64,000 bases of DNA. It comes from Nitrososphaerota archaeon. Lineage in GTDB: Archaea; Thermoproteota; Nitrososphaeria; Nitrososphaerales; Gagatemarchaeaceae. The notes beneath the pieces are model-generated. The model was not told where the DNA came from. It made no database searches and was given only the letters and a program-made list of their open reading frames with translations. Shown piece by piece: positions 13,061 to 42,860 of this stretch (position 1 is the first letter of the stretch; each line of letters starts with the position of its first letter). The translations under genes and the position numbers were made by a program. The stretch lies in the NCBI GenBank assembly GCA_027320425.1, contig DAHVLJ010000010.1, positions 1-64,000 of the forward strand. The letters are read 5' to 3'.

Positions 13061-13157
13061 GCGGTGGTCGTCTAGCCTGGTCCAGGACAGTAGCCTGCCA
13101 CGCTACTAACTCGGGAAGTCATGCAAATGACTCGAGAATTCAAATCCCGGCCACCGC
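13061..13157 (+). tRNA. tRNA-Gly(GCC) with a 23-nt intron between T-stem and T-loop (13116-13138, about 53/54)
   Basis: GCGGTGG/CCACCGC acceptor; GTAGC CTGCCAC GCTAC anticodon arm; excision joins TCGGG to TTCAAATCCCGG. Confidence 0.92.
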
Positions 13158-13258
13158 ACTTATACTTTCCAGACTTGGCCTGCTAATCCCTTGATGGGAC
13201 GTTTGCCTCGTTAATCCCGCGACGCAGCTTATTATCCGCTGGCAAAAATCCCTCCACT

Positions 13259-13639
13259 GTGGAATTCAAGTTCTACTATAGTGGAATAAGGGTGAGGAAC
13301 CTCAAGAGATCAATCGATTTCTACACCAAGGCCCTGGGAATGGAGGTCGTCAAAAGTGGGACGATGCCTCACGGTGGGAAGTGGGTGCACTTGCGCGGAA
13401 CCGGGTCGAAACAGACGTTGGAACTCAACTGGTACCCAAGAGGCAACAGGTTCTACACCGAATACAAGAGAGGTGAGGAGCTCGACCACTTGGCTTTCGT
13501 GGTGAAAGACGTGGCTGCAGCGTACAGATTCCTTCTCAGTCATGGCGCTAAATCGGCGGTCTCTCCTGACGAGTCGAAGGGGACCGAGGTCTATGTCACC
13601 GACCCCGACGGGATCTGGATAGAGCTTCTCGGGCCCTAG
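13259..13639 (+). CDS. VOC family (glyoxalase-like) protein
   Basis: VRNLKRSIDFYTKALGMEVV ... YVTDPDGIWIELLGP; GTG start. Confidence 0.88.
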   Translation: MEFKFYYSGIRVRNLKRSIDFYTKALGMEVVKSGTMPHGGKWVHLRGTGSKQTLELNWYPRGNRFYTEYKRGEELDHLAFVVKDVAAAYRFLLSHGAKSAVSPDESKGTEVYVTDPDGIWIELLGP

Positions 13640-14151
13640 GCGCTCGGCTTCACGCCGACGTTCTTGAGGAACCGGTCGAAAGCATCCTCAGAGATCCATT
13701 CGACCTTCAGGTATTGGGCGACCTCGCCCTCGTCCATGCCCAGCCTTCTGGCCTCCTTCACCGCTACCTTGTAAGCCTCGATTTCAGTTGGTCTGTCGAT
13801 GTATTCGAAACTCCTATCCCACAGCTCCTTGCCCTCTTTATGCTGCCGGATGTGAACCAGCTCATGTATGACGTCGAGATAGACATCGACCTCGCGCCCG
13901 GTTTTCAGGTACCTTGACGCAATCCTGATCGATCCCTCGTGGTCGTTTATTCTCATGTATCCCCTCCCTCTGGCTATCTCCACGGACAGGTTTTCGAGAA
14001 CTTCGCGGGTGTCCTTCCCGAAGATCGCCTTTACCGCTCTGACTCTGTCGAAGCCTTCGAACACCTCGGTGAATGGATGAACGCCGACCTTCGCCTTCCT
14101 GTCGATGACTGTCTCGAACTTCACGGGCGGCCGAGAACCCTCACCGGCCAT
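13636..14151 (-). CDS. Putative zinc metallopeptidase-like protein
   Basis: DVIHELVHIRQHKEGKELWDRSFEY (HExxH). Confidence 0.65.
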   Translation of the reverse strand: MAGEGSRPPVKFETVIDRKAKVGVHPFTEVFEGFDRVRAVKAIFGKDTREVLENLSVEIARGRGYMRINDHEGSIRIASRYLKTGREVDVYLDVIHELVHIRQHKEGKELWDRSFEYIDRPTEIEAYKVAVKEARRLGMDEGEVAQYLKVEWISEDAFDRFLKNVGVKPSA

Positions 14152-14680
14152 TTGAGCTTTTTTCGAGGAGCAGCTTGGAGTAGAGCTTCTCGAACCCCCG
14201 CTTCAGGTAGAATCCCAGCACCATGTCCGACACCAATGTCTGGAGGATCATCGTCCTGCCCTCCGATTCTGAGATCTCCCTCGCTCTGGCGATCAAGCCG
14301 GTCGCGACCCCTTCTCTTCTGTGCTCTGGGACCGTGCCAACACAGTATACCCCGGCGACGCCGGGCGTCCTGAAGAGCGCTGCCACCCCGGCGGTGCCTC
14401 CACCTGCCCTGGACTCGAGTAGGGTTACCTTTCCCGACTTCGAAAGAGACGTCACCAGCTTCCCGACCACGTCGAGAAGCGCCGAATCGCCATAGAAGGA
14501 GCGGAGATATGCCACGGTCCAGGAACGGAGGTCGCGGGAGACAATCACATCCCCTGTAGTGGCGTCTGGGATGCGACCCTTGGAGACAAGGACAGCCATC
14601 TCGTCCGCTTGGCTGTAACCAGTTCTGCGCAGCGCGTTGACGGCCTTGCACGATTCAAAGATCGACATCGTGGGGACCAC
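14141..14680 (-). CDS. GNAT family N-acetyltransferase (real N-terminus probably extends upstream to about 14870)
   Basis: GTVPEHRREGVATGLIARAREISESEGRTMILQTLVSDMVLGFYLKRGFEKLYS; coding-like in-frame extension upstream. Confidence 0.8.
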   Translation of the reverse strand: MVPTMSIFESCKAVNALRRTGYSQADEMAVLVSKGRIPDATTGDVIVSRDLRSWTVAYLRSFYGDSALLDVVGKLVTSLSKSGKVTLLESRAGGGTAGVAALFRTPGVAGVYCVGTVPEHRREGVATGLIARAREISESEGRTMILQTLVSDMVLGFYLKRGFEKLYSKLLLEKSSNGR

Positions 14681-14870
14681 CCCTCTTTTCGCGAACTTGC
14701 CTTCCGCCCAGGCGACGGTCCCTATGATGCTCCCGCATGTCAGTGATCCTCCCCTGTTGAAGAATCCCTCCTTTAGAAGGTCCGATGAAAGGACATAACC
14801 ATCTCCCTTCCAGCTGAGCTCCGCCCAGTTAGACCACCAGCCGATTTCATTGAGCTCTGTCTGGCGCCTG

Positions 14871-16052
14871 TCAGGAGCTACCGTTCAGGTCCACTCCCAA
14901 GATTCTCATCCCTCTCACCGCCGCCCCTGCCATCGACCTTGCCTTCTCTCTGCTGCCTTCCCTGGCGGCGGCCCTCAGCATCCTGTCCGCCCAATCGATC
15001 GCGGTGGGGCTGTCAAAGTCGTCATTCAATGCGGCTTCGAAGCCTTCAAGGGCGCTTTCGTCGCCGTCGCCTCCTACTCCATCCGCCATCGCCCGCATTC
15101 GTGCGAGCCTCCGCCTCGCCGAGTCAGTCCCCGTGAACCCAAACTCACTCCTGTAGTTCTTCGAGAGGAAGACGAACCTCAGCTCATCGGCTGAAAACGA
15201 CTTCAGGGCCTCTCTGACGGTGAGCACGTTGCCCAATGACTTCGACATCTTCTCCCCGCCTTGCTTGAGAAGGTTGGTGTGCACCCAGTGCCTAACGAAG
15301 GGCCTCTTCCCTGTGAGGCACTCGGCCTGCGCTATCTCCGCTTCATGGTGAGGATACACCAGCTCGTAAGCTCCGCCATGGATGTCGTACTGCGCGCCAA
15401 GTATCGGTACCGTCACCGCGGTGTCTTGGATGTGCCACCCAGGAGAGCCGAGGCCCCAGGGGCTCTTGTACCGTCCTTCGACCAGGACCTCCGGTCGCCA
15501 AAGTGCGAAATCGTTGAGGTTCCTTTTCCGCGGCGAAAGCTCGAGGGGCCTCAGAGACAGTTCCCGCTTCGACTGGTGGGAGAGCCTGCCCCATCGCCTG
15601 AACTTCGAAGTGTCGAAGTAGACCCATCCTCCCGCCTGGTAGGCAAAACCCTCGTCGATGAGGGACTCAGTCTGCCTTATCGCTCCCTCCACGTGGTGGG
15701 AAACCGGTTCGAAGCGGGACACCGTGTCTAGCTTGAGCCGTCCGAAATCCTGCTTCATGACAGCGATCATCCGCTCCGCATATGCGATGGGATCTTCTCC
15801 AGCTTTCGACGCGGCACTGCTGACCTGTTCATCCAGGTCTGTTATGTTCATGAGATATGTGACGCCATATCCTAAGTGTTTGAGGTACCTCGCAAGGGCG
15901 TCGAAGAATATGTAGGTCCTGGCGTTGCCGATGTGTATCTCCGACTGCACGGTAGGGCCGCACACGAACATTGAGACGTCGGCCGGCCGGGTCGGCCGGA
16001 ATGGGATCTTCTTGCCTGCCATGGTGTCATAGAGTCTGAGCGCGCTCTTCAT
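14871..16052 (-). CDS. cysS: Cysteinyl-tRNA synthetase
   Basis: FVCGPTVQSEIHIGNARTYIFFDALARYL, PGWHIQ, EIAQAECLTGKRP, GGEKMSKSLGNVLTV. Confidence 0.96.
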   Translation of the reverse strand: MKSALRLYDTMAGKKIPFRPTRPADVSMFVCGPTVQSEIHIGNARTYIFFDALARYLKHLGYGVTYLMNITDLDEQVSSAASKAGEDPIAYAERMIAVMKQDFGRLKLDTVSRFEPVSHHVEGAIRQTESLIDEGFAYQAGGWVYFDTSKFRRWGRLSHQSKRELSLRPLELSPRKRNLNDFALWRPEVLVEGRYKSPWGLGSPGWHIQDTAVTVPILGAQYDIHGGAYELVYPHHEAEIAQAECLTGKRPFVRHWVHTNLLKQGGEKMSKSLGNVLTVREALKSFSADELRFVFLSKNYRSEFGFTGTDSARRRLARMRAMADGVGGDGDESALEGFEAALNDDFDSPTAIDWADRMLRAAAREGSREKARSMAGAAVRGMRILGVDLNGSS

Positions 16053-16402
16053 TGGAACAAGAGGCAGCCACGTCGGGCCAGGTATTAGTTTTTGAGGCGG
16101 CCTGTAACCCCCGAAGGGAGTTGTTCTACGAAGACAGGATTCGGTCCATGGCTGAGCTGAGTCGCAAGCTCCGGTCTCTTGACCAGGACGCCGGAATCAG
16201 GCTGATCGGCGGGAGGGGCACGGACAGGTCCATGATGTTCGTGACTAGGTTCGGCACAACCTACACGGTCATGACCTACGGCGTGGTACATGGAGGTCTG
16301 CCAGGGAGAAGGCGTCAGACGCTGGAGCTGAGCGACCCTGGCGAGGTAGAGAGGGAGCTGAGTGGCATGGTCAAGGGGAAGCTGCAGGCGTGGATTTATT
16401 GA
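16052..16402 (+). CDS. Hypothetical protein
   Basis: 116-aa ORF between divergent cysS and a thioredoxin-fold gene. Confidence 0.55.
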   Translation: MEQEAATSGQVLVFEAACNPRRELFYEDRIRSMAELSRKLRSLDQDAGIRLIGGRGTDRSMMFVTRFGTTYTVMTYGVVHGGLPGRRRQTLELSDPGEVERELSGMVKGKLQAWIY

Positions 16403-16451
16403 CGCGCGGTTAGCACACGATTAATATCGAACCGACGTTCCCCGCGCGCCT

Positions 16452-16793
16452 ATGGACAAGCCAAACGCGATTCACGTGGTGTACGCCAACTGGTGCCCCC
16501 ATTGCGTCCCAACGACCGTCGAGCCTCTTCGCTCGAGGGGGAACGAGCTTGGGATTCCCTGCCGCCTTTACGACATAGACACTGAAGATGTGGGTGCAGC
16601 CGACGAACTCGTCAAGAAGTTCGGCGACTGGAGCCCTGACTATCTTATCCCACAGGTCTTCCTCGAATACGGCAATGGAAAGATGCAGCACGTCCTTACA
16701 GGGAACCCCCAGGGGGTCCACATGACTAGGAAGGCCGTAGAAGCCCTGCTCAACGGGCCGCTGAGTGTGAATACGAGAGCCTCTCCTAAATAG
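16452..16793 (+). CDS. Thioredoxin/glutaredoxin-fold protein with CPHC motif
   Basis: VVYANWCPHCVPTTVEPLRSRG...IPQVFLEYGNGKMQHVLTG. Confidence 0.75.
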   Translation: MDKPNAIHVVYANWCPHCVPTTVEPLRSRGNELGIPCRLYDIDTEDVGAADELVKKFGDWSPDYLIPQVFLEYGNGKMQHVLTGNPQGVHMTRKAVEALLNGPLSVNTRASPK

Positions 16794-16814
16794 TGGCATC
16801 CGGTCGGACTTCAC

Positions 16815-17870
16815 ATGGCAAACGACAGTCTCGAATCTCTTTACACGAAGGTCGCAAGGAAGATGCTCACTGAGACCCTACATGTGAAACGGGGTGACTC
16901 GGTCACCGTGGAGACGTGGGACAACGGACTGCCGTTCGCTAGGCGTGCCCTATCGGAGGCGAGAGCATTGGGCTGCACCGGAGTCATGCTGTACGAGGAC
17001 GAGCAGGCGTACGTCGAGGGGGTAAGAAGGAGCCCTCAAGACGTGGTGGGGCTGATGGGGAAGAACGAATACGGGCTCCTGTCGGGGACTGACGCCTACA
17101 TATTCATCCCCGGTCAGGCGTTAGGTTCTTTCTCAAAGTCCTTGAAGCCGGACGAACGCAGCCGCTCCACAAGATACAACGAGTCCTGGTACGAGGCCGC
17201 CCAGAAGGCCGGGCTCAGAGGAGCGAGGCTGTCCTTCGGTTATGTTGGCAAAGACCTGGCAAAGACTCTGGGGAAGAGCGTCCAGGCCATAGTACGGGGG
17301 CAGCTCGAAGCAGGTCTAGCCGACTTCGACCAGATTTCAGGAACTGCGAGGAGGTTGTCGCCGTCGCTTGCTGACGGTGCGCCGGCCGAACTAACGACAT
17401 CGAACTCGACCCTCCGTTTCACCCTCAAGGGTGAGTTGTCTGTCGAGGACGGCCTCGTCGACGACCACGACAGAGAGTCAGGCAACAACATGGCCTATCT
17501 CCCCCCGGGATTCGTGGCAAAGGAGGTGGACGCTAGTACGGCGAACGGAAGCGTCGTCTTGACCGACTCGCTTACGGACCATGGAATAGTGCCACGCGTA
17601 ACTCTCCAGTTCAGGGACGGCAAGGTGGTCGGATGGGAGTCAGCTGCGAAGGATAAAATGGAGAAGGTCTTCGCCTCTGTCGCACAGGACAAGCGTAAGC
17701 TCGGCTCAATGACTGTGGGATTAAACCCGAAGATGAAGTATGGGCTGGGCCAAGACAGGTTCGTCGGAGGTGCGATCAACCTTGGTGGCTTCGGCTTCCG
17801 CGGCCTAGTGAAGAGAGGCACCCTGAAGGTCGAAGGGCGCACGCTGCTGTCTGAAGGCAGGCTGAACTGA
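16815..17870 (+). CDS. M29-type aminopeptidase-like protein
   Basis: VKRGDSVTVETWDNGLPFARRALSEARALG; C-terminal KYGLGQDRFVGGAINLGGFG. Confidence 0.65.
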   Translation: MANDSLESLYTKVARKMLTETLHVKRGDSVTVETWDNGLPFARRALSEARALGCTGVMLYEDEQAYVEGVRRSPQDVVGLMGKNEYGLLSGTDAYIFIPGQALGSFSKSLKPDERSRSTRYNESWYEAAQKAGLRGARLSFGYVGKDLAKTLGKSVQAIVRGQLEAGLADFDQISGTARRLSPSLADGAPAELTTSNSTLRFTLKGELSVEDGLVDDHDRESGNNMAYLPPGFVAKEVDASTANGSVVLTDSLTDHGIVPRVTLQFRDGKVVGWESAAKDKMEKVFASVAQDKRKLGSMTVGLNPKMKYGLGQDRFVGGAINLGGFGFRGLVKRGTLKVEGRTLLSEGRLN

Positions 17871-17943
17871 TAGCATCATTCGCGAGGAGACGGAAGGAAT
17901 CTGCTCCGACAAATTTATGAGTAGACTCTGTCGTTGAAACTCA

Positions 17944-18285
17944 ATGATCACTGAAATCGAGGACGTCGCGATAGTCGTCTCCGACGCCAAGAAGTCTCTG
18001 AAATGGTACACAGGCATCCTGGGCCTCGAGGCAAGAAGCGAAGAAGGGCACTGGGTCACCGTGGCCCCCAAAGGCTCGAAGACGGTCATCCACCTGTGTG
18101 AAGGAGACGTGCTTGAGCCAGGTAACACAGGAATCGCACTGAAGGCGGACGACCTGAACAGAGCTTACAAGGAGCTCTCCGCTAAGGGCGTGAAGTTCAC
18201 TCACCCCCCGAAAGATGACGGGTGGGGGGTCTACTCCCAGTTCGAGGATCCGGACGGCAACGTCATCTGGCTAAACCCATCGTAG
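17944..18285 (+). CDS. VOC family (glyoxalase-like) protein
   Basis: EDVAIVVSDAKKSLKWYTGILGLEA ... FEDPDGNVIWL. Confidence 0.9.
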   Translation: MITEIEDVAIVVSDAKKSLKWYTGILGLEARSEEGHWVTVAPKGSKTVIHLCEGDVLEPGNTGIALKADDLNRAYKELSAKGVKFTHPPKDDGWGVYSQFEDPDGNVIWLNPS

Positions 18286-18303
18286 GCGCCGCATCGGCCT
18301 GGG

Positions 18304-19260
18304 TCACTGTCGGCTGGAGCCCCGCGAGGCGAAGCCGGCTATCAGGTACATCAGTGCCGTAGCCGCTACCCGTTGGGATCTGCCAGTGGGATCCAACGAA
18401 GGCGCAAGTTCGACCAGGTCGGCGGCCTTCACTCTGTCATTCTTCGCAATCTCGTAGACCATGGTAGAAAGTTCCCCGCCGCTTATCCCCCCGACGCTCG
18501 GTGCGCTCACACCGGAGACTTGTGATATGTCGACCGCGTCGAGGTCGACGCTCAGATAGACGAGGTCTGCTCCAGCAGAAGCGAAGGCGTAGGCATCCCT
18601 CGCCGCGGACAGGGCGCCCCCTTTTCGCACTTCTTCAGCCGTGATGACCTTGACTCCGAGCTGCTCCGCCTTGTCTGCATAGCTCTTCGAGTTGAGGAAT
18701 CCGTGGATTCCGATTTCCACGACCCTTCCTGGGTCGAGCGTCTCTACGGCCTCGAGTGCCAGCCCGTACGACGAGCCTGAGTTCGGCTTCCCCCCGATCA
18801 TGCCCCGAAGGTCGAAATGAGAGTCTATCACTATCAGTCCCAGAGCCTTGGACTTCTTGCCGCAGGCTCGAAGAGCAGGGAGAGAGATGCTGTTGTCTCC
18901 TCCCAGCGTGACAAGCAACGAGCTCGGAGCGATGTCTCGCCCGACCTCTTCTTCGATAGCCTGGTGCGTCGATGTTATGTCGGGGCTGCCGAGCACCATG
19001 TCTCCGAGGTCGAACACCCTGGCCCCTTCCAGCCCTAGGCCGAGCTCCACGTTGTAGTTCGAAAAGCTCCCCATCGACTCGCGGACCGCGCTCGGTCCCC
19101 CTGCTGCCCCTTTCCTCCCAAGCACCGCACCATCGTAAGGGATTCCGAGGATGTTCACTGCTTTCGGTTCGGCGCCCGACGCGCTCTTGATTATCTGGAC
19201 CATCCTCTTGTCTCTCGGGTCCAGATAGCTCGGCGCAGGATACTTGGCAGGCTTCTTCAA
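18304..19260 (-). CDS. hutG: Ureohydrolase family, probable formimidoylglutamase
   Basis: LGGDNSISLPAL, VIDSHFDLRG, LSVDLDAVD arginase-fold metal motifs; adjacent to hutH/I/U. Confidence 0.82.
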   Translation of the reverse strand: MKKPAKYPAPSYLDPRDKRMVQIIKSASGAEPKAVNILGIPYDGAVLGRKGAAGGPSAVRESMGSFSNYNVELGLGLEGARVFDLGDMVLGSPDITSTHQAIEEEVGRDIAPSSLLVTLGGDNSISLPALRACGKKSKALGLIVIDSHFDLRGMIGGKPNSGSSYGLALEAVETLDPGRVVEIGIHGFLNSKSYADKAEQLGVKVITAEEVRKGGALSAARDAYAFASAGADLVYLSVDLDAVDISQVSGVSAPSVGGISGGELSTMVYEIAKNDRVKAADLVELAPSLDPTGRSQRVAATALMYLIAGFASRGSSRQ

Positions 19261-19300
19261 GCGTCGGGCAGGCGGAGGCGTCGTGTTAAAAGCGTGTGAG

Positions 19301-19310
19301 CTATTTATCC
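19301..19310 (+). promoter_or_regulatory. Candidate TATA box of hutH
   Basis: CTATTTATCC centred about 28 nt before the TTG start at 19333. Confidence 0.45.
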
Positions 19311-19332
19311 AGCCCGCTCTAGGGTCGAACCG

Positions 19333-20808
19333 TTGGTAGTGACAGCTGACGGGCGCTCGTTGACTCTCGCTGACGCCATCGAAGTCGCTGAAGACGGGGT
19401 TGCGGTAAAGGCGAGCCCGAACAGCCTCAAACAGATGGAGAGGTTCAGATCCCTCCTGGAGGAGAAGCTGTCAAGGGGAGAAGTTGTCTACGGGGTGAAC
19501 ACAGGTTTCGGGTCCCTTTCTGACAAGGTGGTGAGGCCCGAGAACCTGGAAGAGCTACAGCTGAATCTCATTCGGAGCCACTCGGCTGGGGTAGGCTCTC
19601 CGCTTCCAGCTGAAGTGGTGAGGGCGGCCATGCTGATTAGGCTGAACAGCCTCCTCAATGGGAACAGCGCGGTGCGGAAGGAGGTTGCAGAGCTCATAGT
19701 GGGCATGCTTAATCGCGGAGTCACCCCGCTGGTTCCGGAATTCGGTTCCTTGGGGGCGTCCGGGGATCTGGTCCCCTCCGCTCACATGGCGCTGACCATG
19801 CTCGGAGAGGGAAAGGCATACCGCCGCGGCACCCTGATGGACTCAAGCAGGGCGCTGTCTGCGTCAAAGCTCAAGCCAATCAAGCTCCGCGCAAAAGAGG
19901 GTCTCTCGCTCATCAACGGGACGCAGTTCACGACAGCGCTTTCGTGCGTGGCTGTCCACAGGGGGAACTTGCTCCTGAACGCGGCCAACTCTGCTCTCTC
20001 GGTCACAGCAGAGGTGCTCAGGGCCTGCTCTCAGTCGTTCGATGAAAGGCTGGTCGGTGTCAAGCTCGATCCAGGGCAGGGGTTCGTCGCGCGCGAGGTT
20101 CGAGGGCATCTAAAGGGGAGCCGCAGGATACGGTCAGAACCCGTCCCCCAGGATCCGTACTCCATCAGATGTGCCCCCCAGGTCCACGGGTCGCTCAAGG
20201 ACGCCCTTGGCTTCGCCGAGAGGATAACAGTGGACGAAATGAATTCCGTCTCAGATAACCCGGTCCTTCTAGAAGACGGCTCAGTGCTGCACGGAGGGAA
20301 CTTCCACGCTCAGCCGGTGGCAATGGCCCTCGACCTGATGAGCATCTCAATATCCTACCTAGGTCTGATCTCGCTTGCTAGGATCCACTATCTCCTTTCA
20401 AAGACGCCCCCGGAGTCGAAATACATGGCGAGCAAGCCTGGCCTCGAGTCGGGGCTCATGATACTAGAGTATACAGCCACGGCCCTGAGCAACGACAACG
20501 CCAAGGGCATCTACCCACAATCTTCCTACCCTGCGAACGTCTCCGGAGGGATCGAAGACCACGCAAGCCATGGAGTGAACGCAGGGGTGAAGTGCATGCA
20601 GGTCGCCGCTAACGTCTCGAAGATTCTTGCTGTGGAGCTGGTCTGTGCTTCGAACATCCTGGGGTCGAACGAGAGTGGGATCTCAGAGCACGCAATGAAG
20701 GCGAGCGCGTTCGTCAGGTCGCACTCCCCGCTCCTGAGGGGGGACCGGGTCCAAGGGGGAGAGATCGAGAAGATCGCGAAGGAGATACTCTCAGGGAATC
20801 TCCCCTAG
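19333..20808 (+). CDS. hutH: Histidine ammonia-lyase
   Basis: YGVNTGFGSLSD, FGSLGASGDLVPSAHMAL (MIO-forming ASG), LINGTQF. Confidence 0.96.
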   Translation: MVVTADGRSLTLADAIEVAEDGVAVKASPNSLKQMERFRSLLEEKLSRGEVVYGVNTGFGSLSDKVVRPENLEELQLNLIRSHSAGVGSPLPAEVVRAAMLIRLNSLLNGNSAVRKEVAELIVGMLNRGVTPLVPEFGSLGASGDLVPSAHMALTMLGEGKAYRRGTLMDSSRALSASKLKPIKLRAKEGLSLINGTQFTTALSCVAVHRGNLLLNAANSALSVTAEVLRACSQSFDERLVGVKLDPGQGFVAREVRGHLKGSRRIRSEPVPQDPYSIRCAPQVHGSLKDALGFAERITVDEMNSVSDNPVLLEDGSVLHGGNFHAQPVAMALDLMSISISYLGLISLARIHYLLSKTPPESKYMASKPGLESGLMILEYTATALSNDNAKGIYPQSSYPANVSGGIEDHASHGVNAGVKCMQVAANVSKILAVELVCASNILGSNESGISEHAMKASAFVRSHSPLLRGDRVQGGEIEKIAKEILSGNLP

Positions 20809-22061: not shown

Positions 22062-22092
22062 GATAAGGCTTGCCAGACGAGCCGTCGTGAAC

Positions 22093-22099
22093 TCTTAAA
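22093..22099 (+). promoter_or_regulatory. Candidate TATA box of hutU
   Basis: CTTAAAT about 28 nt before ATG 22124, leaderless spacing. Confidence 0.45.
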
Positions 22100-22123
22100 T
22101 CGCGTGCTGGATGCCGAACTCAC

Positions 22124-23776
22124 ATGCAGACCCACGCGGTCAGGGCTCCGCGAGGTTCCGAGATCTCCTGCAAGAGCTGGCACCAGGAAGCCGCCCTCAG
22201 GATGCTCATGAACAACCTCGACCCAGAAGTAGGGAAGGACCCGGAGCATCTCATCGTCTACGGCGGGACCGGGCGAGCGGCCCGCTCCTGGAAAGCGTAC
22301 GACGCCATCGTGAAGTCACTCCGGAATCTGGATAATGACGAGACGCTCCTCATACAATCAGGCAAGCCCGTCGGCATCTTCAAGACGACGAAGGCTGCGC
22401 CGAGAGTGCTCATCTCCAACGCGATGCTGGTTCCCAAATGGGCTGACTGGGCTTACTTCCGGGAGCTAGAGGAGCGCGGGCTCACCATGTTCGGGCAGAT
22501 GACCGCCGGGAGCTGGATGTACATCGGGACCCAGGGGATCCTGCAGGGGACTTACGAAACGTTGGCTGCGGTCGCTGACAAGCACTTCGGCGGCTCCCTG
22601 AAGGGGAAGGTCGTCCTCACGTCAGGACTAGGAGAGATGGGCGGAGCCCAGCCGCTCGCGGTCACAATGAACGACGGGGTCGCGCTGATAGTAGAGGTCG
22701 ACAAGAGAGCGATACAACGAAGGCTTGACAAGGAGTACTGTGACGTCATGGTCGAAGACCCGAAAGAGGCGGTGTCTATGGCCAGGGACGCGGCGAAGGA
22801 AGGGAAGGCTCTGTCCGTCGCCCTGCTCGGGAACGCCGCGGAGGTGCTCCCCATGCTCTATGCCACAGGGTTCAAGCCCGACGTCCTTACGGACCAGACG
22901 TCGGCCCACGACCCGCTTGCTGGCTACATCCCAGAAAGGTTCGACGTCAAATCAGCGTCAGACCTCCGCGCCTCTGACCCGAAGAGGTACCTCGAGCTCT
23001 CGATGGCCTCCATTGCCAAGCACGTTAGGGCGATGCTCCAAATTCAGGAGAGAGGCGCTATCGCCTTTGAGTATGGGAATAACATCAGGAAGATGGCCAG
23101 CGACGCTGGGGTGGAGAACCCGTTCAGGATCCCTGGCTTCGTCCCAGAGTATATCAGGCCGCTCTTCTGCGAGGGGCGGGGACCGTTCCGCTGGGCCGCC
23201 CTGTCTGGGAACCCCGAGGACATTTACGCGACTGACGAAGCCGTGATGAAGGAGTTCTCAGAGAACGTCTCTCTCGTCAGATGGATAACGAAGGCCCATG
23301 AAAGGGTGAGATTCCAGGGCCTGCCTGCCCGGGTCTGTTGGCTCGGTTATGGTGAAAGGGCGCGTTTCGGCAAGATCATCAACGACATGGTAAGGGACGG
23401 GAAGATTTCTGCTCCTGTGATTATCGGGCGGGACCACCTAGACTCAGGTTCGGTGGCTTCTCCTTATCGTGAAACTGAAGGGATGAAAGATGGCTCCGAC
23501 GCCATAGCCGATTGGCCGATATTGAACGCCCTGCTCAATGCCGTTTCAGGGGCATCATGGGTGTCGGTCCACCATGGCGGTGGCGTAGGGATCGGATATT
23601 CGATTCATGCCGGGCTCGCGGTACTCGCGGACGGGACTACAGAAGCAGAAGCAAGGATCGCCGCGGCCCTGACCAACGATCCGGGGATAGGAGTTGCAAG
23701 GCACGTCGACGCGGGTTACGAAGGGGCGATAAAGACAGCGAAGGCCAAAGGCGTCAAGGTCCCGATGATGGACTAA
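22124..23776 (+). CDS. hutU: Urocanate hydratase
   Basis: [69 protein letters not shown]. Confidence 0.97.
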
Positions 23777-26009: not shown

Positions 26010-26115
26010 GGGCCGGTCGTCTAGCATGGTTAGGACGTCAGGAACAGCCCGTCAGGCTCTGACTCTTGCTGGCAGAAGACGGCGAAGGTCGGCGGTTCAA
26101 CTCCGCCCCGGCCCA
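26010..26115 (+). tRNA. tRNA-Val(GAC) with two micro-introns (26040-26055, 16 nt; 26064-26078, 15 nt); CCA encoded at 26116-26118
   Basis: GGGCCGG/CCGGCCC acceptor, GGCGG TTCAACT CCGCC T-arm; double excision gives anticodon arm TCGCT CTGACAC GGCGA and a 75-nt body; BHB drawn at both introns. Confidence 0.88.
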
Positions 26116-26153
26116 CCAATCCTTAATACGCGCAGGCTATCTCTGCAGATTGA

Positions 26154-28743: not shown

Positions 28744-28835
28744 TGGACCGGGGGGGAATCGGACCCCCGACCTTGGGACCCTAACGGGTTCTCCCGCGTG
28801 CAAGGCGGGCGTTCGTACCGCTGAACTACCGGCCC
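28744..28835 (-). tRNA. tRNA-Ala(TGC) with a 19-nt intron in the variable loop (28772-28790, about 45/46)
   Basis: GGGCCGG/CCGGTCC acceptor; CCCGC CTTGCAC GCGGG anticodon arm; removal of AACCCGTTAGGGTCCCAAG restores variable loop AGGTC. Confidence 0.93.
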
Positions 28836-28935: not shown

Positions 28936-29028
28936 GGGCTGGTAGCTCAGTCTCTAACGGGGGAGCAGCTTGGCTAGAGCACCCGACTGATAATCGGGAG
29001 GCCAAGGGTTCGAATCCCTTCCGGCCCA
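28936..29028 (+). tRNA. tRNA-Ile(GAT) with an 18-nt D-loop intron (28951-28968, about 15/16)
   Basis: GGGCTGG/CCGGCCC acceptor; CCCGA CTGATAA TCGGG anticodon arm; excision gives D-arm GCTC AGCTTGGCTA GAGC. Confidence 0.93.
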
Positions 29029-32668: not shown

Positions 32669-32689
32669 AATGCAATCTTCCGCGTGCAG

Positions 32690-33727: not shown

Positions 33728-33997
33728 ACCCTACCCGGGACGCAAACCTACTATATACTGTTTCTCCCCATCCCTATTGGATATTGGGGCACCCATCAAA
33801 CCAACTCACAGAAACGGCCTGCTCTTGGCTTGGATTCTCTGTGGGCGAGTCCAACCGGCAATGTTGAGCGAATCTCCGTTGTTCCCCCACTGGCAACCGC
33901 TCTTTGGACCGGCTAGCTAACCCAATCTCTATATTGTATGATTAGAAACATAGAATAGTTCGGCGACCAATAAATCACGGCCAAAACTTAGGCACCA

Positions 33998-35242: not shown

Positions 35243-35259
35243 GCTCGGGACTGCCGTAG

Positions 35260-36261
35260 ATGAAAGCTGGAAACAGCCGGAGGCGGCTCGTCGACCGAGT
35301 CTACGACTTCGTCTCCGCACTGCTGGGAAGCAGTGCGCTCCTTTTCCTTTTTATGATCTTGGCTGTACTGGCGGTTTTCAGCCTCCCCTCGTTAGTCGTA
35401 AACGGTCTGAACTTCTTCACTACGGTCATCTGGAACCCGGGGATTTCGACTACCCTCACGGCGGTTCGCGGCTTCCCTGCGATGTCGGGGGCGTCATATG
35501 GGATGCTGGTTTTCTTCTCCGGAACTCTCATCTCTTCGGGTCTTGCTCTGCTCATCGGGGCGCCATTGAGCATCGGGGTCGCCATCTTCCTCTCGATGAT
35601 CGCGCCGAAACGCCTCTCCGCCTCTCTCTCATTCTTCGTTGAGCTGCTGGCGGGGATACCAAGCATAGTCTTCGGCTTCTGGGGACTGCTGGTGCTAGCC
35701 CCACTGCTCGTCAACGTCGTCGAACCCGTGATGGCGCAATACTTGGGTTTCATACCCGGATTCGGGGGACCTGTTTACGGCTACGGGCTGATCGCATCGG
35801 GGCTCGTCCTGGCGCTCATGATCGTCCCCATAGTCTCCGCGATAAGCCGCGACGCGATGTCCCAGACCCCGATCGAGCTCAAGGAGGCGGCCATGGCACT
35901 CGGCATGACGAACTGGGAGGTCACGCGCAAAGTAGTCTTGCCGTACGCCAAAACGGCGATAGTCGGTTCCCTGGTCCTCGGCCTCGGCAGGGCCCTGGGA
36001 GAGACGATGGCGGTGGCCATGGTCTCGCAGTCAGCCCTGAACATACTGCCAATGACTGTGTACTATCCGATAAACACACTCTCCGCGTTCATGGCTGTAA
36101 CTTTCGACAGCGCTCTCACCGACCCTTCCGGCATGGAGATCAGCTCGCTCGCAGAACTTGCGCTGGTCTTGTTCATAATCACTACGACTGTGAACATCGT
36201 CGCCCGCCTGCTCGTTAGACGCGGCTTCATCTCTAGCGCCGAACATTTGGTCCAGGTGTAG
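35260..36261 (+). CDS. pstC: Phosphate ABC transporter permease PstC
   Basis: ELLAGIPSIVFGFWGLLVLAP, EAAMALGMTNWEVTRKVVLPYAKT, GLGRALGETMAVAMV. Confidence 0.94.
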   Translation: MKAGNSRRRLVDRVYDFVSALLGSSALLFLFMILAVLAVFSLPSLVVNGLNFFTTVIWNPGISTTLTAVRGFPAMSGASYGMLVFFSGTLISSGLALLIGAPLSIGVAIFLSMIAPKRLSASLSFFVELLAGIPSIVFGFWGLLVLAPLLVNVVEPVMAQYLGFIPGFGGPVYGYGLIASGLVLALMIVPIVSAISRDAMSQTPIELKEAAMALGMTNWEVTRKVVLPYAKTAIVGSLVLGLGRALGETMAVAMVSQSALNILPMTVYYPINTLSAFMAVTFDSALTDPSGMEISSLAELALVLFIITTTVNIVARLLVRRGFISSAEHLVQV

Positions 36262-36267
36262 TGGAAG

Positions 36268-37215
36268 ATGAGCGCCAAAGAACCCTCCCAGCCGGCCCGT
36301 GCCGCCGTGGGCTCGCCAAACTCCATAGGCCGCTCCACCCGGTCGGGGATCCGCGGACCGCCAAACTATGGCGTAAGGCGTCTCCGCAACGCGGTGATGA
36401 CGGGGCTCGCGGTGGCGAGCATCCTGATCGTACTGATACCTCTCGCGGACATAATCTATCTCTTCGTCGTCAGGGGCTTGGAGGTGGTTTCGTGGCCGGC
36501 GCTGACCACGATAACGGTCGGGACGGGCGTCGAGTTCGTGGGCGGGGGCATTTCAAACGCCATCTCCGGGACGATAGTCCTGATAGGACTCGCGACGGCG
36601 ATTACGGTCCCATTGGGGTTGGTTGGAGGCATATACATGGCCGAGTTTTCCGACAACAACAGGTTTTCGGAGGTGCTCAGGTTCGTCGCGGACGTGCTGG
36701 CAGGGAACTCTTCCATGGTTGTGGGCCTCGCAGGTTATTTCATCTTCGTCTTGTACTTCGGCTGGGGATATTCGGCGCTCGCCGGTTCTCTCACGCTGTC
36801 CATTCTGATGTTTCCCTACATATTCAGGACGACCGAACTGGCACTTCGCAAGGTCCCTAATGAAATCAGAGAAGGGGCTAGGGCCCTCGGTAGCACCAAG
36901 AGCGCCATGATCAACCGGCTCACATTGAAGTTCGCGATGCCCGGAATACTAACTGGCATACTCCTCTCTGTGAGCATAGGCCTTAGTGAGACGGCTCCAC
37001 TGCTCTTCACTGCTTCGTTCTCCAACTACAACTTCAACGGAGCTTTCCTGCACAACCCAGTGGGGTTCCTCACGTACGTAGTCTTCGTCTACTCGCTGCT
37101 CCCGTCGACCAGCGCCCACAACCTCGCATATCTCTCCAGCTTCCTGCTGATCACATCGATTCTAGCGATAAACGTAGTCGCTAGGGTGGTGCTCAGGAGG
37201 TTCTCGAAGGTCTAG
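36268..37215 (+). CDS. pstA: Phosphate ABC transporter permease PstA
   Basis: FVADVLAGNSSMVVGLAGYFIFV, EGARALGSTKSAMINRLTLKFAMPGILTG, GLSETAPLLFTA. Confidence 0.93.
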   Translation: MSAKEPSQPARAAVGSPNSIGRSTRSGIRGPPNYGVRRLRNAVMTGLAVASILIVLIPLADIIYLFVVRGLEVVSWPALTTITVGTGVEFVGGGISNAISGTIVLIGLATAITVPLGLVGGIYMAEFSDNNRFSEVLRFVADVLAGNSSMVVGLAGYFIFVLYFGWGYSALAGSLTLSILMFPYIFRTTELALRKVPNEIREGARALGSTKSAMINRLTLKFAMPGILTGILLSVSIGLSETAPLLFTASFSNYNFNGAFLHNPVGFLTYVVFVYSLLPSTSAHNLAYLSSFLLITSILAINVVARVVLRRFSKV

Positions 37216-38082
37216 ATGATGGAAGAAGAGTTAAGGCCCGCTCCGAACCGCGGCGGCGACAAAGAGACTAGAAAAGGTGAAATTGAGACTATGACCCAGA
37301 ATCTTTCGGAGGAGCGCGCCCAGGACTCGGGCGGACTGATAAGCCTCGCAGGGCTCAACGCGTTCTACGGGGAGCAGAAGGTCCTCACGGACATCACGCT
37401 CTCAATCGCCCGCAACAAGATCACCGTGTTCATGGGGCCATCAGGTTGTGGGAAGACGACCTTGCTGCGCACCATAAACAGGATGAACGACGGGGTGCGC
37501 AACTTCAGGGTGACGGGCCAGGTGCTCCTCGACGGCACCGATGTCTATTCTCCAGAGGTAGACCCCATACTACTGAGAACGAAGGTGGGGATGGTCTTCC
37601 AGAAGCCCAACCCATTCCCGATCTCGATATACGACAATGTCGCGTTCGGTCCTAGGATCCACAAACTCACGAAATCCAAGTCGGAGCTCGACCAGGTCGT
37701 CCGCGCGAGCCTGGAGAAGGCGGCCCTTTGGGATGAAGTGGGCACGCGCCTCTCAAAGAGCGCACTGGAGCTTTCCGGCGGGCAGCAGCAGCGTCTTTGC
37801 ATCGCGAGAGCGCTCGCGGTCAAGCCCGAGGTGATTCTGATGGACGAGCCAGCTTCCGCCCTAGATCCTGGCTCGACGACGAGGATTGAGGAGCTGTTGG
37901 TGGAGCTGAAGGAGAACTACACTGTCGTCCTTGTCACCCACAACATGCAGCAGGCGGCCAGGGTAGGAAACAGCGTCGCCTTCCTGTACAAGGGGGACCT
38001 AGTGGAATTCGGTCCTGCTGACGAGATCTTCCAGAATCCCAAGAATCCCCTCACCGAGAAATACATCCGGGGCGTCCTTTGA
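37216..38082 (+). CDS. pstB: Phosphate ABC transporter ATPase PstB
   Basis: MGPSGCGKTTLLRTINRMND, LSGGQQQRLCIARALAVKPEVILMDEPASALDP. Confidence 0.97.
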   Translation: MMEEELRPAPNRGGDKETRKGEIETMTQNLSEERAQDSGGLISLAGLNAFYGEQKVLTDITLSIARNKITVFMGPSGCGKTTLLRTINRMNDGVRNFRVTGQVLLDGTDVYSPEVDPILLRTKVGMVFQKPNPFPISIYDNVAFGPRIHKLTKSKSELDQVVRASLEKAALWDEVGTRLSKSALELSGGQQQRLCIARALAVKPEVILMDEPASALDPGSTTRIEELLVELKENYTVVLVTHNMQQAARVGNSVAFLYKGDLVEFGPADEIFQNPKNPLTEKYIRGVL

Positions 38083-38105
38083 ATGCCCGTCAGGGAGGTT
38101 AGGCG

Positions 38106-38741
38106 TTGAGACTGATGGACATGGGGCTGGACCAGCTGAACAGCCTGTTGGTCGAGATGGCGCAACTTTCGCAGTCAGCGGTCTCGGCGTCCATGGAGGC
38201 ATACAGACGAGGAGGAAAGGGGAAGGAGGTCAAACAGATGTCGGACCGCCTAAGGGCTCTCCACCGCCAAGTAAGCGACCTATCAGTGGAGATGATTGCC
38301 AGGTACCAGCCTGTCGCGTCAGATCTAAGGTTCCTCAAGGCGTGCATGGAGATCTCCTATGGCTTCTTCAGATACGGACGCTATGCTCTCGACATCGCGG
38401 AAGTGCTGCAGGTGTTCGGGGACTTGAGCAAGTGCGACCACGAGTCAGTGGTGACCACGGCCCAGAAGACGCAGGAAATGATCAGGATGAGCGTAGACGC
38501 TTTCGCAAGGAGAGACGTCGAGCTAGCTAGGAAGATACCTTCACTGGACGACGCAGTCGACTCGAGCTACAGAGACAACGTCAAGAGCACTCTCCAGGGG
38601 AAGGGAGACGTAAGATGCGCCCTCTCGTCGATGCTGATACTGAGATACCTCGAGCGCATCGCGGACCATGCCACATACATCGGGGAGATGGTCGAATACA
38701 TCTCCACCGGGGTCGAACCTGACGCCTCGCCTGGCAACTGA
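38106..38741 (+). CDS. phoU: PhoU phosphate regulator
   Basis: Duplicated PhoU motifs; immediately downstream of pstB. Confidence 0.9.
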   Translation: MRLMDMGLDQLNSLLVEMAQLSQSAVSASMEAYRRGGKGKEVKQMSDRLRALHRQVSDLSVEMIARYQPVASDLRFLKACMEISYGFFRYGRYALDIAEVLQVFGDLSKCDHESVVTTAQKTQEMIRMSVDAFARRDVELARKIPSLDDAVDSSYRDNVKSTLQGKGDVRCALSSMLILRYLERIADHATYIGEMVEYISTGVEPDASPGN

Positions 38742-38746
38742 TAACC

Positions 38747-39535
38747 TCAGAACGCGATTATCCTGGTGACCTTCCTTCCGGGGACTATCGAGACCTGGTC
38801 TTTGAGAGAGACCCTCAAGCCTTCCCTCGCGTCTGTGGTTCCATAGAGTCTCGCATCCGCGTCCCTCGTCAACGACAGGTCAATCCTGCTACCCCAGGGG
38901 ACCCTGAATCTCAGCGGATGCCCACTGCTGCCTTCGCGCTCGGTATACGTCGGGGTTATGTGGCATATCCCTACTTGATCCGCACTAAGGTCGGCGTACG
39001 CGGCGGGGTCCATCGCCTCTCCCTTGATCCTGTCGACGTAAGAGTAGTACCCTGTGGCCCCCGCCTGGGTGGTGATTACTACCCCGTCTCCGATTGCGGC
39101 GTCACTGATGCTGAGACGCGGCCCTGTCACCTTCACTCTGTACCTGAGACAGGTGCTTTCGTCCCCCCTCTGGAGGTAGACGTCGGTGAACACCTCTCCG
39201 ACCGGCTTGCCGTTCCTCAGGACGCCAAGTCTCTTGTGCGCTTCCGTCGTGAAGCTTCCAGCCTTGATCATGGCCAGCGCCCGGGGGAGCTCGTCGTACG
39301 ACGTCCGTGCCAGGTGCGCTCTCGATCCGCTGACCCCATCTGACCTGACTCCGACGAACAGCAGGGGGATGTCTTCAGTCCTACCGAACCAGCTGAACTT
39401 CCCGTCTCCGCCGACTACGATGCCGAAGTCAGCTCTAGACGAGCCTACTTCGAACCCTGCCTCCCTGACCACTTTGTCCAGCTCTTCCGGAGACACCTTC
39501 GGCGAGCCCCCATCTAACAGGAGCTTCGCTTTCAT
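38747..39535 (-). CDS. NAD kinase-like protein
   Basis: DFGIVVGGDGKFSWFGR, GDGVVITTQAGATGYYSYV (NAD kinase-type GGDG and TGST-like motifs). Confidence 0.72.
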   Translation of the reverse strand: MKAKLLLDGGSPKVSPEELDKVVREAGFEVGSSRADFGIVVGGDGKFSWFGRTEDIPLLFVGVRSDGVSGSRAHLARTSYDELPRALAMIKAGSFTTEAHKRLGVLRNGKPVGEVFTDVYLQRGDESTCLRYRVKVTGPRLSISDAAIGDGVVITTQAGATGYYSYVDRIKGEAMDPAAYADLSADQVGICHITPTYTEREGSSGHPLRFRVPWGSRIDLSLTRDADARLYGTTDAREGLRVSLKDQVSIVPGRKVTRIIAF

Positions 39536-40392
39536 CTGCCCTCCCCCTTGCCCACGAACTCCAATATGCTCCCTTCGCCGATGTCTCTTACTCCCGTCTC
39601 GATGAACTTGGTGGCTCTAGACCTCGCTTCGTCCTCGGATGGAGTCGAAACTCCGAGCTTCTCCATCATCTTGAGCGAATTCTCTACCGCGTACCCCTTG
39701 AAGTGATTGTTGAAGTAGCCGTATGTCTTCTTCACTTGGGACGCTACTTCCCTGACTTTCGGGACCCAGCCGTCCAACTCCTTGTCATTGTACCTGTAGT
39801 TGTACCAGGGTCTGCTCCCCCTTCCATGCCACCGTATGAATGCGAAGTCAGCCGTCACCACCGTGTCGGGCGGGAGCAAAGGCTCATCGACAATAACGTT
39901 GGAGACGTTCCTTCCTCTCAGGAACGACCAGACGTCGTCACGGAGCCATGAAGGATGCCTGAACTCTACAGCGAACATTAGGTCGTCAGGGGCTGCGCCA
40001 AGAAACCGCTTGAGCTTCTCAAAGTCGGTTTGATAGGAGTAGCTCGGCGGCAGCTGGATCAGTATCGGCCCGAGCTTCCCTGAGGCCATAAGGGGCTTCA
40101 ATAAGCCAAGGAACCTGACCAGGTCCGCTTCCGTTCCGCGGTCGAGGTCTAGCTTCTTCTCATGGGTCAGGAGCCTGGGCAGCTTGACTGAGAACACGAA
40201 GCCGTCCGGGGCGTATCTTGCCCACCCCAGCACCATCCCCTTCGACGGGTAGGCATAGAACGAGGAGTCCACTTCGACCGTCTGGAACAGCTTTGAGTAG
40301 TAAGCGAGCTTGTTGGTCGTAGTGTTGGGGTAGAACACCCCTGTCCACTCGTTGTACGACCACCCCGAGGTGCCTACGAGTAGCTCGGTCAA
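39532..40392 (-). CDS. DUF72 family protein
   Basis: LLVGTSGWSYNEWTGVFYP, YYSKLFQTVEVDSSFYAYPS, AVEFRHPSW, YGYFNNHFKGYA. Confidence 0.93.
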   Translation of the reverse strand: MTELLVGTSGWSYNEWTGVFYPNTTTNKLAYYSKLFQTVEVDSSFYAYPSKGMVLGWARYAPDGFVFSVKLPRLLTHEKKLDLDRGTEADLVRFLGLLKPLMASGKLGPILIQLPPSYSYQTDFEKLKRFLGAAPDDLMFAVEFRHPSWLRDDVWSFLRGRNVSNVIVDEPLLPPDTVVTADFAFIRWHGRGSRPWYNYRYNDKELDGWVPKVREVASQVKKTYGYFNNHFKGYAVENSLKMMEKLGVSTPSEDEARSRATKFIETGVRDIGEGSILEFVGKGEGR

Positions 40393-40439
40393 CGCTTCTT
40401 GCCGAACCGGGTTCTCGATTTAAGTCTGGAGATAGGCGC

Positions 40440-41186
40440 TCAGATGACGGGCATCCACCCTGGTTTGGTGGACCAGGTCGCGATGGCGTCGTGGGCGTGA
40501 ATTGACTCGAAGCACCTTCCGCTTATGTAAACGGCGTCCGGGAACCTCTTCACACACTCTCGTACGAGGTCTTCTGCGAACCTCGGGTTCGCCTGCGCTT
40601 CAAGTATCTTCTTGGCTTCTTCCAGCCTCTTCATGTGTTCCTTCGGCTTGGCTGAGAAGCATTCGTTGACTTTCTCGACTACTTTCATCGAATCAAGTAC
40701 TTTCTCACTCTTGATCACCAGCGTCATCTGGGCCCTCTGCATATGGCCGATGCCGATCATCTTCTTTGAACAGGGGCACGCTGTCATCCCGTCGACCACA
40801 TAGCGGTAAGTGATGGCGCCACGTTCTGTCGCTCTCATCGAGACCTTGGCGAACTGGTCTCCGTGGGGTATCTCGAAGGTCGCCGTCACACTGGACCCTG
40901 GCTGGGTCCGGTTCACTTCTGCACAGATCCACCTGAGCCACTGCTCCACTCTCTCCGCCTTCTTCCCGTTCGCAGCCTTGACGAGGCGGCTCATGTGCAC
41001 TCCTCTGTGGAGGCCCGTCGACGTCTGGACGGTCAACTCGATCGGCATCGTGACGTTCCCCGCCGAGCCCCACACCCTGTAGTTGGCTATGCCGGCGTCA
41101 ACCGGTAGCCTAGAGGTCTCTGACTGGACGTCCGCCGTCGCATCTATGTACGTTACGGCGTCTTCCGTTGCCCCATCCCGTCCCAA
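40440..41186 (-). CDS. mptA: GTP cyclohydrolase MptA / FolE2-type
   Basis: RGVHMSRL, GAITYRYVVDGMTACPCSKKMIGIGHMQRA. Confidence 0.93.
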   Translation of the reverse strand: MGRDGATEDAVTYIDATADVQSETSRLPVDAGIANYRVWGSAGNVTMPIELTVQTSTGLHRGVHMSRLVKAANGKKAERVEQWLRWICAEVNRTQPGSSVTATFEIPHGDQFAKVSMRATERGAITYRYVVDGMTACPCSKKMIGIGHMQRAQMTLVIKSEKVLDSMKVVEKVNECFSAKPKEHMKRLEEAKKILEAQANPRFAEDLVRECVKRFPDAVYISGRCFESIHAHDAIATWSTKPGWMPVI

Positions 41187-41210
41187 GGAGTTTGAGCGCC
41201 ATAACTCTCC

Positions 41211-41843
41211 TTAAGTAATTTTCCTTGGTCCTACAGAGAGGGGGTCCTGAACCCTTGCGTTGACGAACGAGCTTGCCCTGGCCTGGCAGCCGGGGCATCT
41301 CCAGCAGTGGGAGGGCCCGTCCCGGTGGCAGCTCCACGTGAGCTCCAGTGGCACCCCGAGGGAAGCTGCGAGCTTCACCACCTCGGCTTTCCTCTTCGCC
41401 TTCAACGGCCTGATTATCTCGAACCTCTTTTTCCTCAACAGAGCGGAGCCCGCGGAGAGGGCACCCCGGAGGAGCGTGAAGAACTCTGAGCTTACATCCT
41501 CGAAGACTTCGCTGTCGTCCTTGTTGTGCCCGCCCACGACGGCAGATGCGCCGACTTCCTCGGCATACGACGCAGCGAAGGAGTAGAAAATGGAGTTTCT
41601 TAGGGGTATGTAGGTCGGGGGGAGCCCCCCGAACTTCGCTCCCCGGATGTCGCCTGCCTCCCTGAGGTCGGGGAGCCTTACCCTTCTGTGTTCTGTAACT
41701 CCGGCGAAGTCAGCTATCGCCTTCGCGGACTCCAGTTCCCGGTCCGCTATCCCGTGGTATTCGAAGGTCAGGGCTCTGACCGAGTACCTTCCCTGACAGA
41801 GAAAGAGCGCCGTAGCGGAATCTATGCCGCCGGACAGGAGCAC
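41211..41843 (-). CDS. queC: 7-cyano-7-deazaguanine synthase
   Basis: LLSGGIDSATALFLC PP-loop, SCHRDGPSHCWRCPGCQAR zinc motif. Confidence 0.92.
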   Translation of the reverse strand: MLLSGGIDSATALFLCQGRYSVRALTFEYHGIADRELESAKAIADFAGVTEHRRVRLPDLREAGDIRGAKFGGLPPTYIPLRNSIFYSFAASYAEEVGASAVVGGHNKDDSEVFEDVSSEFFTLLRGALSAGSALLRKKRFEIIRPLKAKRKAEVVKLAASLGVPLELTWSCHRDGPSHCWRCPGCQARASSFVNARVQDPLSVGPRKIT

Positions 41844-42706
41844 TATGGCTTCTTTCGTGCGCGGTTGGCACCGTCCCCATGAAGCTTTGCAAGTATGTGG
41901 CTCCCCTTGTTGAGCCCCTCATACACGTAGACGCCCACAGAAGTCACGTTGGATGGCATCTCTGGCGCGACCCTGGTGAGTACCTCCCTGGCGAGGTTCT
42001 CCACCGTAGCCTCTCCCTTCATCAGGACTGCGGTCTGCTTTGGCGCCTTGATCGCAAATTCTCCGTGGACTGTCTCAAACCTGAGCGAGACTGCCCTGGG
42101 GCCGACCGACGTGACATACTTTTCGTTGATGAATAACTTGTGGTCCAAGCTCTTCACGGCGTCTTTCACGATTTGCTTCGCCCTCGCGAAATCGACCACC
42201 ATCCCCTCGATTGGCTTCCCGATCACCTCTACAAGGACGCTGGACGTGTGCCCGTGCATGACCGAACACTTCTCTGTCTTCGGGAGGATGTGGGCATAGT
42301 CGAAGTTGAAGGAAGGGTCATCGAGGAAAATGGTCTGGAGGTCCCCCTCCTCGCCAAGGCCAAGCACCCGGATGCCGTGGTCGAACCTGTCGCTCCTATG
42401 CGAATCCTTCCTTACGATGACGCAGTCTACCTTTGACGCAAGGAGCCGCTTCAGCTGAAGCCTATCGAAACCAGGCTCGACGAAGACGTACGCGTTGTTC
42501 ACTCGGAAGTCTGCTCGTATTCCACGTGCGAGCGGGACAGGCACGTTCTCTCTATAGCCTACGCCCAATGAGTCCAACAGGTCGGCGACCAGCTGATGGA
42601 TGGCAGTCCTGGCCGAACCGCTCTTTACCCTGTATGCCCTTTCATACGCTCCCTCGTCCAGCCGGTTCAGCCTAGGTGCGAGCTTCATGAGGAGCTGTTC
42701 GCTCAT
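41843..42706 (-). CDS. queD: QueD/6-pyruvoyl-tetrahydropterin synthase homologue with extra N-terminal domain
   Basis: FNFDYAHILPKTEKCSVMHGHTSSVLVEV, VVDFARAKQIVKDAVKSLDHKLFIN; about 125 additional N-terminal residues. Confidence 0.85.
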   Translation of the reverse strand: MSEQLLMKLAPRLNRLDEGAYERAYRVKSGSARTAIHQLVADLLDSLGVGYRENVPVPLARGIRADFRVNNAYVFVEPGFDRLQLKRLLASKVDCVIVRKDSHRSDRFDHGIRVLGLGEEGDLQTIFLDDPSFNFDYAHILPKTEKCSVMHGHTSSVLVEVIGKPIEGMVVDFARAKQIVKDAVKSLDHKLFINEKYVTSVGPRAVSLRFETVHGEFAIKAPKQTAVLMKGEATVENLAREVLTRVAPEMPSNVTSVGVYVYEGLNKGSHILAKLHGDGANRARKKP

Positions 42707-42773
42707 TCCAGACTCAGCCTTCCATGGACTCGTTTAAGGGATTTGGAAAGCGAGGAGTACCATTGAACAATGG

Positions 42774-42860
42774 TGCGGCCTGCGGGATTCGAACCCGCGC
42801 AAGTGGCTGTCTCCTCGCGTGAATGGGAAGCCACTATCCTAACCACTGGATCAAGGCCGC
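42774..42860 (-). tRNA. tRNA-Gly(CCC) with canonical 37/38 15-nt intron (42809-42823); CCA encoded at 42771-42773
   Basis: GCGGCCT/AGGCCGC acceptor; GTGGC TTCCCA[intron]A GCCAC; BHB drawn. Confidence 0.92.

Follow-up and report, generated by a model that had tools for sequence, protein, structure and literature searches.

Bulge-helix-bulge micro-introns in the tRNA genes of a Nitrososphaerales archaeon and their presence and absence among sister species

Introduction

The transfer RNA (tRNA) genes of Thermoproteales, hyperthermophilic Crenarchaeota, carry 0.84 introns on average, with 71 introns in 46 genes of Pyrobaculum calidifontis (PMC8450103). In three wetland Asgard genomes of the Atabeyarchaeia and Freyarchaeia, 92–95% of tRNA genes are interrupted, often at non-canonical positions, and over half of the Asgard genes carry several introns (PMC11291895). 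Here, we analyze five tRNA genes that hold six micro-introns of the archaeal bulge-helix-bulge (BHB) type in positions 1 to 64,000 of contig DAHVLJ010000010.1 from a Nitrososphaerota archaeon of soil or acid water (GenBank assembly GCA_027320425.1), a stretch of 64,000 nucleotides (nt) referred to as the window. The window is part of a 126.5-kb contig (C16) in an assembly (G000) of 906,843 bases, distributed over 24 contigs and 53.5% complete. It is highly probable that the five genes are functional and that their introns are excised by a heteromeric (αβ)2 splicing endonuclease, EndA.

The tRNA genes found in this genome hold about 1.2 introns each. Relatives of the lineage are predicted to be mesophiles with an optimum of about 40 °C (PMC10640624), as opposed to the hyperthermophilic Thermoproteales. 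The Asgard genomes resemble G000 in their frequent non-canonical positions and soil habitat, but belong to another phylum and have a higher intron density. Other Thaumarchaeota also have non-canonical introns, and tRNAscan-SE 2.0 includes a Thaumarchaeota-specific BHB model (PMC8450103); they possess an α2β2 enzyme like the one predicted here, and positions 59/60, 53/54, 45/46 and others are already listed (PMC4090602). In three order-mates from other families, the tRNA matches listed are mostly 72–76 nt long, whereas tRNA genes of the present genus are mostly interrupted. Intron number also varies between close relatives in the tRNA-Thr(GGU) of Caldiarchaeum subterraneum (PMC3293823), a case connected with an integrated element as well as a 5′ tRNA fragment; the variation in the present genus is plain presence or absence of introns in several tRNAs across 31 species genomes.

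The intron class, many of its positions and the enzyme type are already known, and about 1.2 introns per gene is within the known range and no record. We found no earlier report of a tRNA-intron expansion in the present lineage, nor of a clear within-genus series of presence and absence; the word ‘intron’ does not occur in the paper that covers its probable genus (PMC10640624). The chief interest is the gain and loss of introns at the species level inside one genus; how archaeal tRNA introns are gained is an unsettled question. Over the 31 genomes of this genus, the same bond of a single-copy tRNA gene, between identical exon flanks, holds an intron in some species and none in others. Such a natural series makes it possible to test whether introns were gained or lost and how splicing enzyme and substrates co-evolve, here in a predicted mesophile instead of a hyperthermophile.

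Five interrupted tRNA genes in the window

The introns were located with a solver that excises BHB-bounded stretches, scores the remaining cloverleaf and tests explicitly for the BHB, given approximate gene ends and no intron positions. It returned five tRNA genes and six introns, the same set, in lengths and positions, that a sequence-only reading of this DNA had proposed. Excision restores a standard cloverleaf in every gene, with mature lengths inside the 72–75 nt given by that reading. The features are listed below by coordinates and strand; P refers to a shuffle test in which the intron letters were permuted, the junction was free to slide by ±2, and BHB quality was scored (bp, base pairs).

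13061..13158, +, tRNA-Gly(GCC) gene with one intron; mature length 75 nt, excision leaves all four stems paired
13116-13138, +, Gly-GCC intron of 23 nt at 53/54; central helix 4 bp, inner helix 5 bp, P = 0.0003
26010..26115, +, tRNA-Val(GAC) gene with two introns; mature length 75 nt, missed by ARAGORN and RF00005
26040-26055, +, Val-GAC intron of 16 nt at 28/29; strict BHB, P = 0.0009
26064-26078, +, Val-GAC intron of 15 nt at 36/37; relaxed BHB without outer helix, P = 0.045
28744..28835, -, tRNA-Ala(TGC) gene with one intron; mature length 73 nt
28772-28790, -, Ala-TGC intron of 19 nt at 45/46; relaxed BHB, 3/4 central pairs, P = 0.068
28936..29028, +, tRNA-Ile(GAT) gene with one intron; mature length 75 nt, mis-called Ser by ARAGORN
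28951-28968, +, Ile-GAT intron of 18 nt at 15/16 (D loop); P = 0.0037
42774..42860, -, tRNA-Gly(CCC) gene with one intron at the canonical site; mature length 72 nt
42809-42823, -, Gly-CCC intron of 15 nt at 37/38; P = 0.0031

A full 4-bp central helix is formed by five of the six introns, Ala-TGC having 3 bp. The sequence-only reading had drawn all six as a central helix flanked by two 3-nt bulges; a small correction is that Ala-TGC and Val 36/37 are relaxed motifs. A T-arm scan of the whole window revealed no tRNA gene beyond the five, and finding all five interrupted is unremarkable against a genome-wide rate of 79% (0.79^5 = 0.31). Standard tools perform poorly on these genes: ARAGORN reports only three in the window, imperfectly and including the mis-called Ser, and the Rfam model RF00005 matches three. 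In practice, many tRNA genes of this lineage are missed or mis-called by both. At gathering threshold, Rfam matched only tRNA in the window and no other family. A group I self-splicing intron was ruled out by size, as its core requires ~200 nt or more and the introns here measure 15–23 nt.

Introns present and absent at the same bond among sister species

The junctions were compared over 31 same-genus genomes, using both exon flanks with a free gap between them as the search pattern. For four of the six introns (Ile-GAT, Val 36/37, Ala-TGC and Gly-CCC), uninterrupted orthologues match the predicted exon junction exactly, and the exon flanks are identical across the joined junctions. No uninterrupted orthologue was available for Gly-GCC 53/54 or Val 28/29; the intron-free isoacceptor Val(TAC) on contig C24 of the same assembly displays both Val-GAC exon junctions and thereby supports Val 28/29.

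The Ile-GAT flanks are directly joined in three genomes (G005, G003 and G018), while 15 matches bear an intron of 17–22 nt, in 14 distinct sequences that were scored. G012 and G015 lack the Val-GAC 36/37 intron and G018 the Ala-TGC 45/46 intron, each with an exact junction; the latter is present in six genomes including G000, measuring 16–19 nt in the five other species. Gly-CCC lacks its 37/38 intron, again with an exact junction, in six genomes and has it in G000 and G001 (16 nt); in G005 and G015, where the flanks differ, Gly-CCC introns are 17 and 16 nt long. At Val-GAC 28/29, all matches carry an intron of 15–17 nt (17 sequences), and the Gly-GCC 53/54 site is shared with G005 (24 nt) and G015 (23 nt).

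Intron letters change between species and the motif is kept. In Ile-GAT, the full central helix is found in 12 of the 14 sequences and the inner helix has at least 3 bp in all; in Val 28/29, the central helix is full in 15 of 17 and the inner helices are kept. The Gly-GCC inner helix shows paired changes from gtcat/atgac to gtcgc/gcgac in the comparison with G005 and G015. Because intron-minus orthologues exist and the BHB is kept despite changing letters, the introns are taken as real and a pseudogene origin as very unlikely.

On a weak single-gene tree of the EndA α subunit, the Ile and Val 36/37 introns require one change each and Gly-CCC two. With direction read from this tree, the pattern is consistent with a gain of Ile-GAT 15/16 after G005 and G003 had branched, and suggests a loss of Val-GAC 36/37 in the clade of G012 and G015. 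A tentative extension, which we hold to be possible but rather doubtful, is that the genus is in active micro-intron turnover: BHB elements of 15–22 nt would have been precisely inserted and removed since the species split, perhaps by the splicing enzymes through reverse splicing and subsequent recombination, and the expansion would have arisen separately from those of thermophiles.

Genome-wide census

The census drew on RF00005 matches, T-arm pattern matches and manual resolution of hard cases, and included two same-genus genomes for comparison, the closed genome G005 and G015. It covers family or pattern matches with their surrounding stretches, so that gene counts are lower bounds. D-loop positions may move by 1–2 bases among equivalent solutions, and Ser-GCT, Lys-CTT, Arg-GCG and Pro-CGG were settled, in one or other genome, partly by hand through comparison.

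In G000, 34 distinct tRNA genes were found, of which 27 are interrupted by 40 introns in total. Fourteen of these introns lie at 37/38 and the rest are spread over some 15 other sites, including 15/16, 22/23, 27/28, 28/29, 29/30, 30/31, 31/32, 45/46, 48/49, 53/54 and 59/60; their median length is 16 nt (range 11–62). The relatives hold 50 introns in 30 of 41 genes found in G005 (Thr-GGT and Thr-TGT counted) and 45 introns in 32 of 37 in G015. Across G000 and the relatives, non-canonical introns make up about two thirds of the total, with median lengths of 16–17 nt. At least seven tRNA genes in G000 are uninterrupted (Ala-CGC, His-GTG, Leu-CAG, Leu-GAG, Pro-CGG, Gln-TTG and Val-TAC). The sequence-only reading had extrapolated from the window to a genome-wide expansion of EndA-type BHB introns, which the counts bear out and extend to the genus; its rate of 100%, taken from the window, gives way to about 80%, and the enzyme type it had proposed draws on sister genomes, as described below.

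The splicing endonuclease

The only PF01974 gene found in G000 lies 3 kb beyond the window (C16:66866-67585, -). It has the Tyr and the aligned Lys of the active site; the catalytic His is replaced by Pro or Ala in all 17 copies of this gene, and for this reason we read it as the structural β subunit. Among the genus and order, a second, higher-scoring EndA paralogue is present in most genomes of greater completeness. In G019, whose β is 100% identical to that of G000, this α subunit has the full Tyr/His/Lys triad and a crenarchaeal-type KPK loop. Its best match is the EndA of Aeropyrum pernix (E=4.8e-42; PDB 3p1z, 3ajv), the closest solved relative by sequence comparison, with the loop and catalytic triad aligned and KPK facing KPR. 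The loop residues probably correspond to K44 and the positive residue 46 of PMC12397907. EndA enzymes of the (αβ)2 and ε2 types cut relaxed motifs, for which the loop lysine is required (PMC6379350, PMC12397907). Sister genomes thus hold both paralogues and the conserved lysine of the crenarchaea-specific loop, G000 only β. These sequence features support a heteromeric (αβ)2-type EndA with a loop linked to broad specificity in this lineage. The broad-specificity heteromeric enzyme anticipated from the window is accordingly supported by the sister genomes' α/β pair and lysine loop.

Splicing model and alternative explanations

In the proposed precursor, a 4-bp helix would form between intron bases and the four exon bases preceding each splice site, with a bulge of 3 nt on either strand. 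The (αβ)2 heterotetramer would cleave both sides behind bulge base 2, leaving the exons to be joined by a tRNA ligase, which in archaea is RtcB. In tRNA-Val(GAC), the in-stem intron at 28/29 is probably excised first, restoring the arm for the 36/37 cut. With its crenarchaeal-type lysine loop, the enzyme may tolerate relaxed motifs and positions outside the standard ones; this would allow a genus-wide expansion to the density found here, with introns gained and lost between species.

Three observations weigh against this model. Two of the six motifs, Val 36/37 and Ala 45/46, are relaxed, with modest shuffle support; the PF01974 search of the 53.5%-complete assembly did not reveal a catalytic α EndA; and the pattern and family census of G000, G005 and G015 detected no tRNA-Cys, -Asp or -Tyr and is therefore incomplete. 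The missing α is most simply explained by an assembly that is half complete, and the three tRNAs may be heavily interrupted, split or permuted.

That standard tools miss or mis-score the five loci could point to decaying tRNA pseudogenes or fragments, with the extra bases as neutral insertions. We give this very little credence: all stems are intact after excision, the exons match uninterrupted orthologues exactly, and the same sites and BHB are kept across the genus while the letters change. Moreover, neither G000 nor two complete relatives yielded a second intact gene with any of these anticodons, which answers the check for intact paralogues raised with the sequence-only reading, and sister orthologues confirm the junctions. 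Equally improbable is a prediction artefact, in which a flexible search always finds some excision that yields a cloverleaf. The solver did try many excisions and met near-equal alternatives at several loci, but it called all 18 of 18 intron-free control tRNAs from other genera without an intron, and natural intron-minus orthologues fix the junctions. Shuffles seldom match the observed BHB quality for four of the six introns, and do so in ~5–7% of cases for the two relaxed ones.

The enzyme, too, has an alternative: with one EndA gene alone visible in G000, the introns could be cut by a single-subunit-type EndA (α4 or α2) or another nuclease. This is hardly more credible than the preceding two, since the G000 gene is the His-less β, the catalytic α occurs in sister genomes including G019, and the two-paralogue pattern holds across the order. 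Excision of BHB micro-introns by an (αβ)2 EndA remains our preferred explanation.

Lineage

Relatives of the G000 β subunit, at 63–100% identity, come from metagenome-assembled genomes labelled archaeon, Thaumarchaeota, Nitrososphaerota or Nitrososphaerales. One is SubAcS15-57, listed as Candidatus (Ca.) Subgagatemarchaeum by Sheridan et al. (PMC10640624). A gain of histidine-degradation genes is reported for Ca. Subgagatemarchaeum (PMC10640624), which fits the urocanase encoded in the window (hutU, 22124-23776, +). Because SubAcS15-57 is among the β relatives and the window holds a urocanase, we assign G000 with moderate confidence to Ca. Subgagatemarchaeum (Gagatemarchaeaceae, Group I.1c, Nitrososphaerales).

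Other tRNA loci

Introns of 16–52 nt at 59/60 in the T loop occur repeatedly, in tRNAs for Ser-GCT, Thr and Phe, and conceal the genes from standard finders (G000 C24:24728-24867; C14:49295 region; G005 C1:866332-866499). The 5′ acceptor strand served to predict the hidden 3′ exon of tRNA-Ser(GCT), which was then found past a T-loop intron of 24, 52 or 26 nt in three species. A split (trans) tRNA-Ser(GCT), suggested by the diverging 3′ end, was ruled out, since each of the three genomes has the 3′ exon a few tens of bases further downstream. Likewise, tRNA-Thr(CGT) is not an intron-free gene with weak stems, as a 21-nt intron at 59/60 restores its arms. In G005, a Phe intron at 65/66 was superseded by a better solution at 59/60, and a two-intron Pro-CGG, on comparative grounds, by a single 37-nt intron at 15/16.

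The 37/38 intron of tRNA-Trp(CCA) is 57–65 nt long (L067 = G000:C24:10898-11049, L235, L252) and has shared TGATGA-like and GGATGA motifs, reminiscent of the box C/D guide RNAs in archaeal tRNA-Trp introns; an Rfam search of the long intron matched no separate guide-RNA family. Two tRNA-Glu(TTC) copies in G000 (C9:4062-4155 and C19:5400-5493), both with 19-nt introns at 15/16, differ by one exon base and several intron bases. Near-identical copies of tRNA-His(GTG) lie near the ends of three contigs (G000 C7:8699, C18:259 and C20:105197), which would fit an assembly broken by a repeat that includes the gene.

On a 154-kb contig of G015, five tRNA matches are closely spaced (G015:C2:150895-151549, L293). 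The four resolved tRNAs (Ser-GCT, Leu-CAG, Leu-CAA and Leu-TAG) are intron-free and look different from the interrupted chromosomal set; the array may be a mobile element, or the contig may be foreign. At G005:C1:1054431 and 1460767 (+) and G015:C1:1189 (-), 3′ ends of tRNAs (Gly-TCC, Phe) are present as short copies that lack the remaining gene, as expected of attachment sites of integrated elements.

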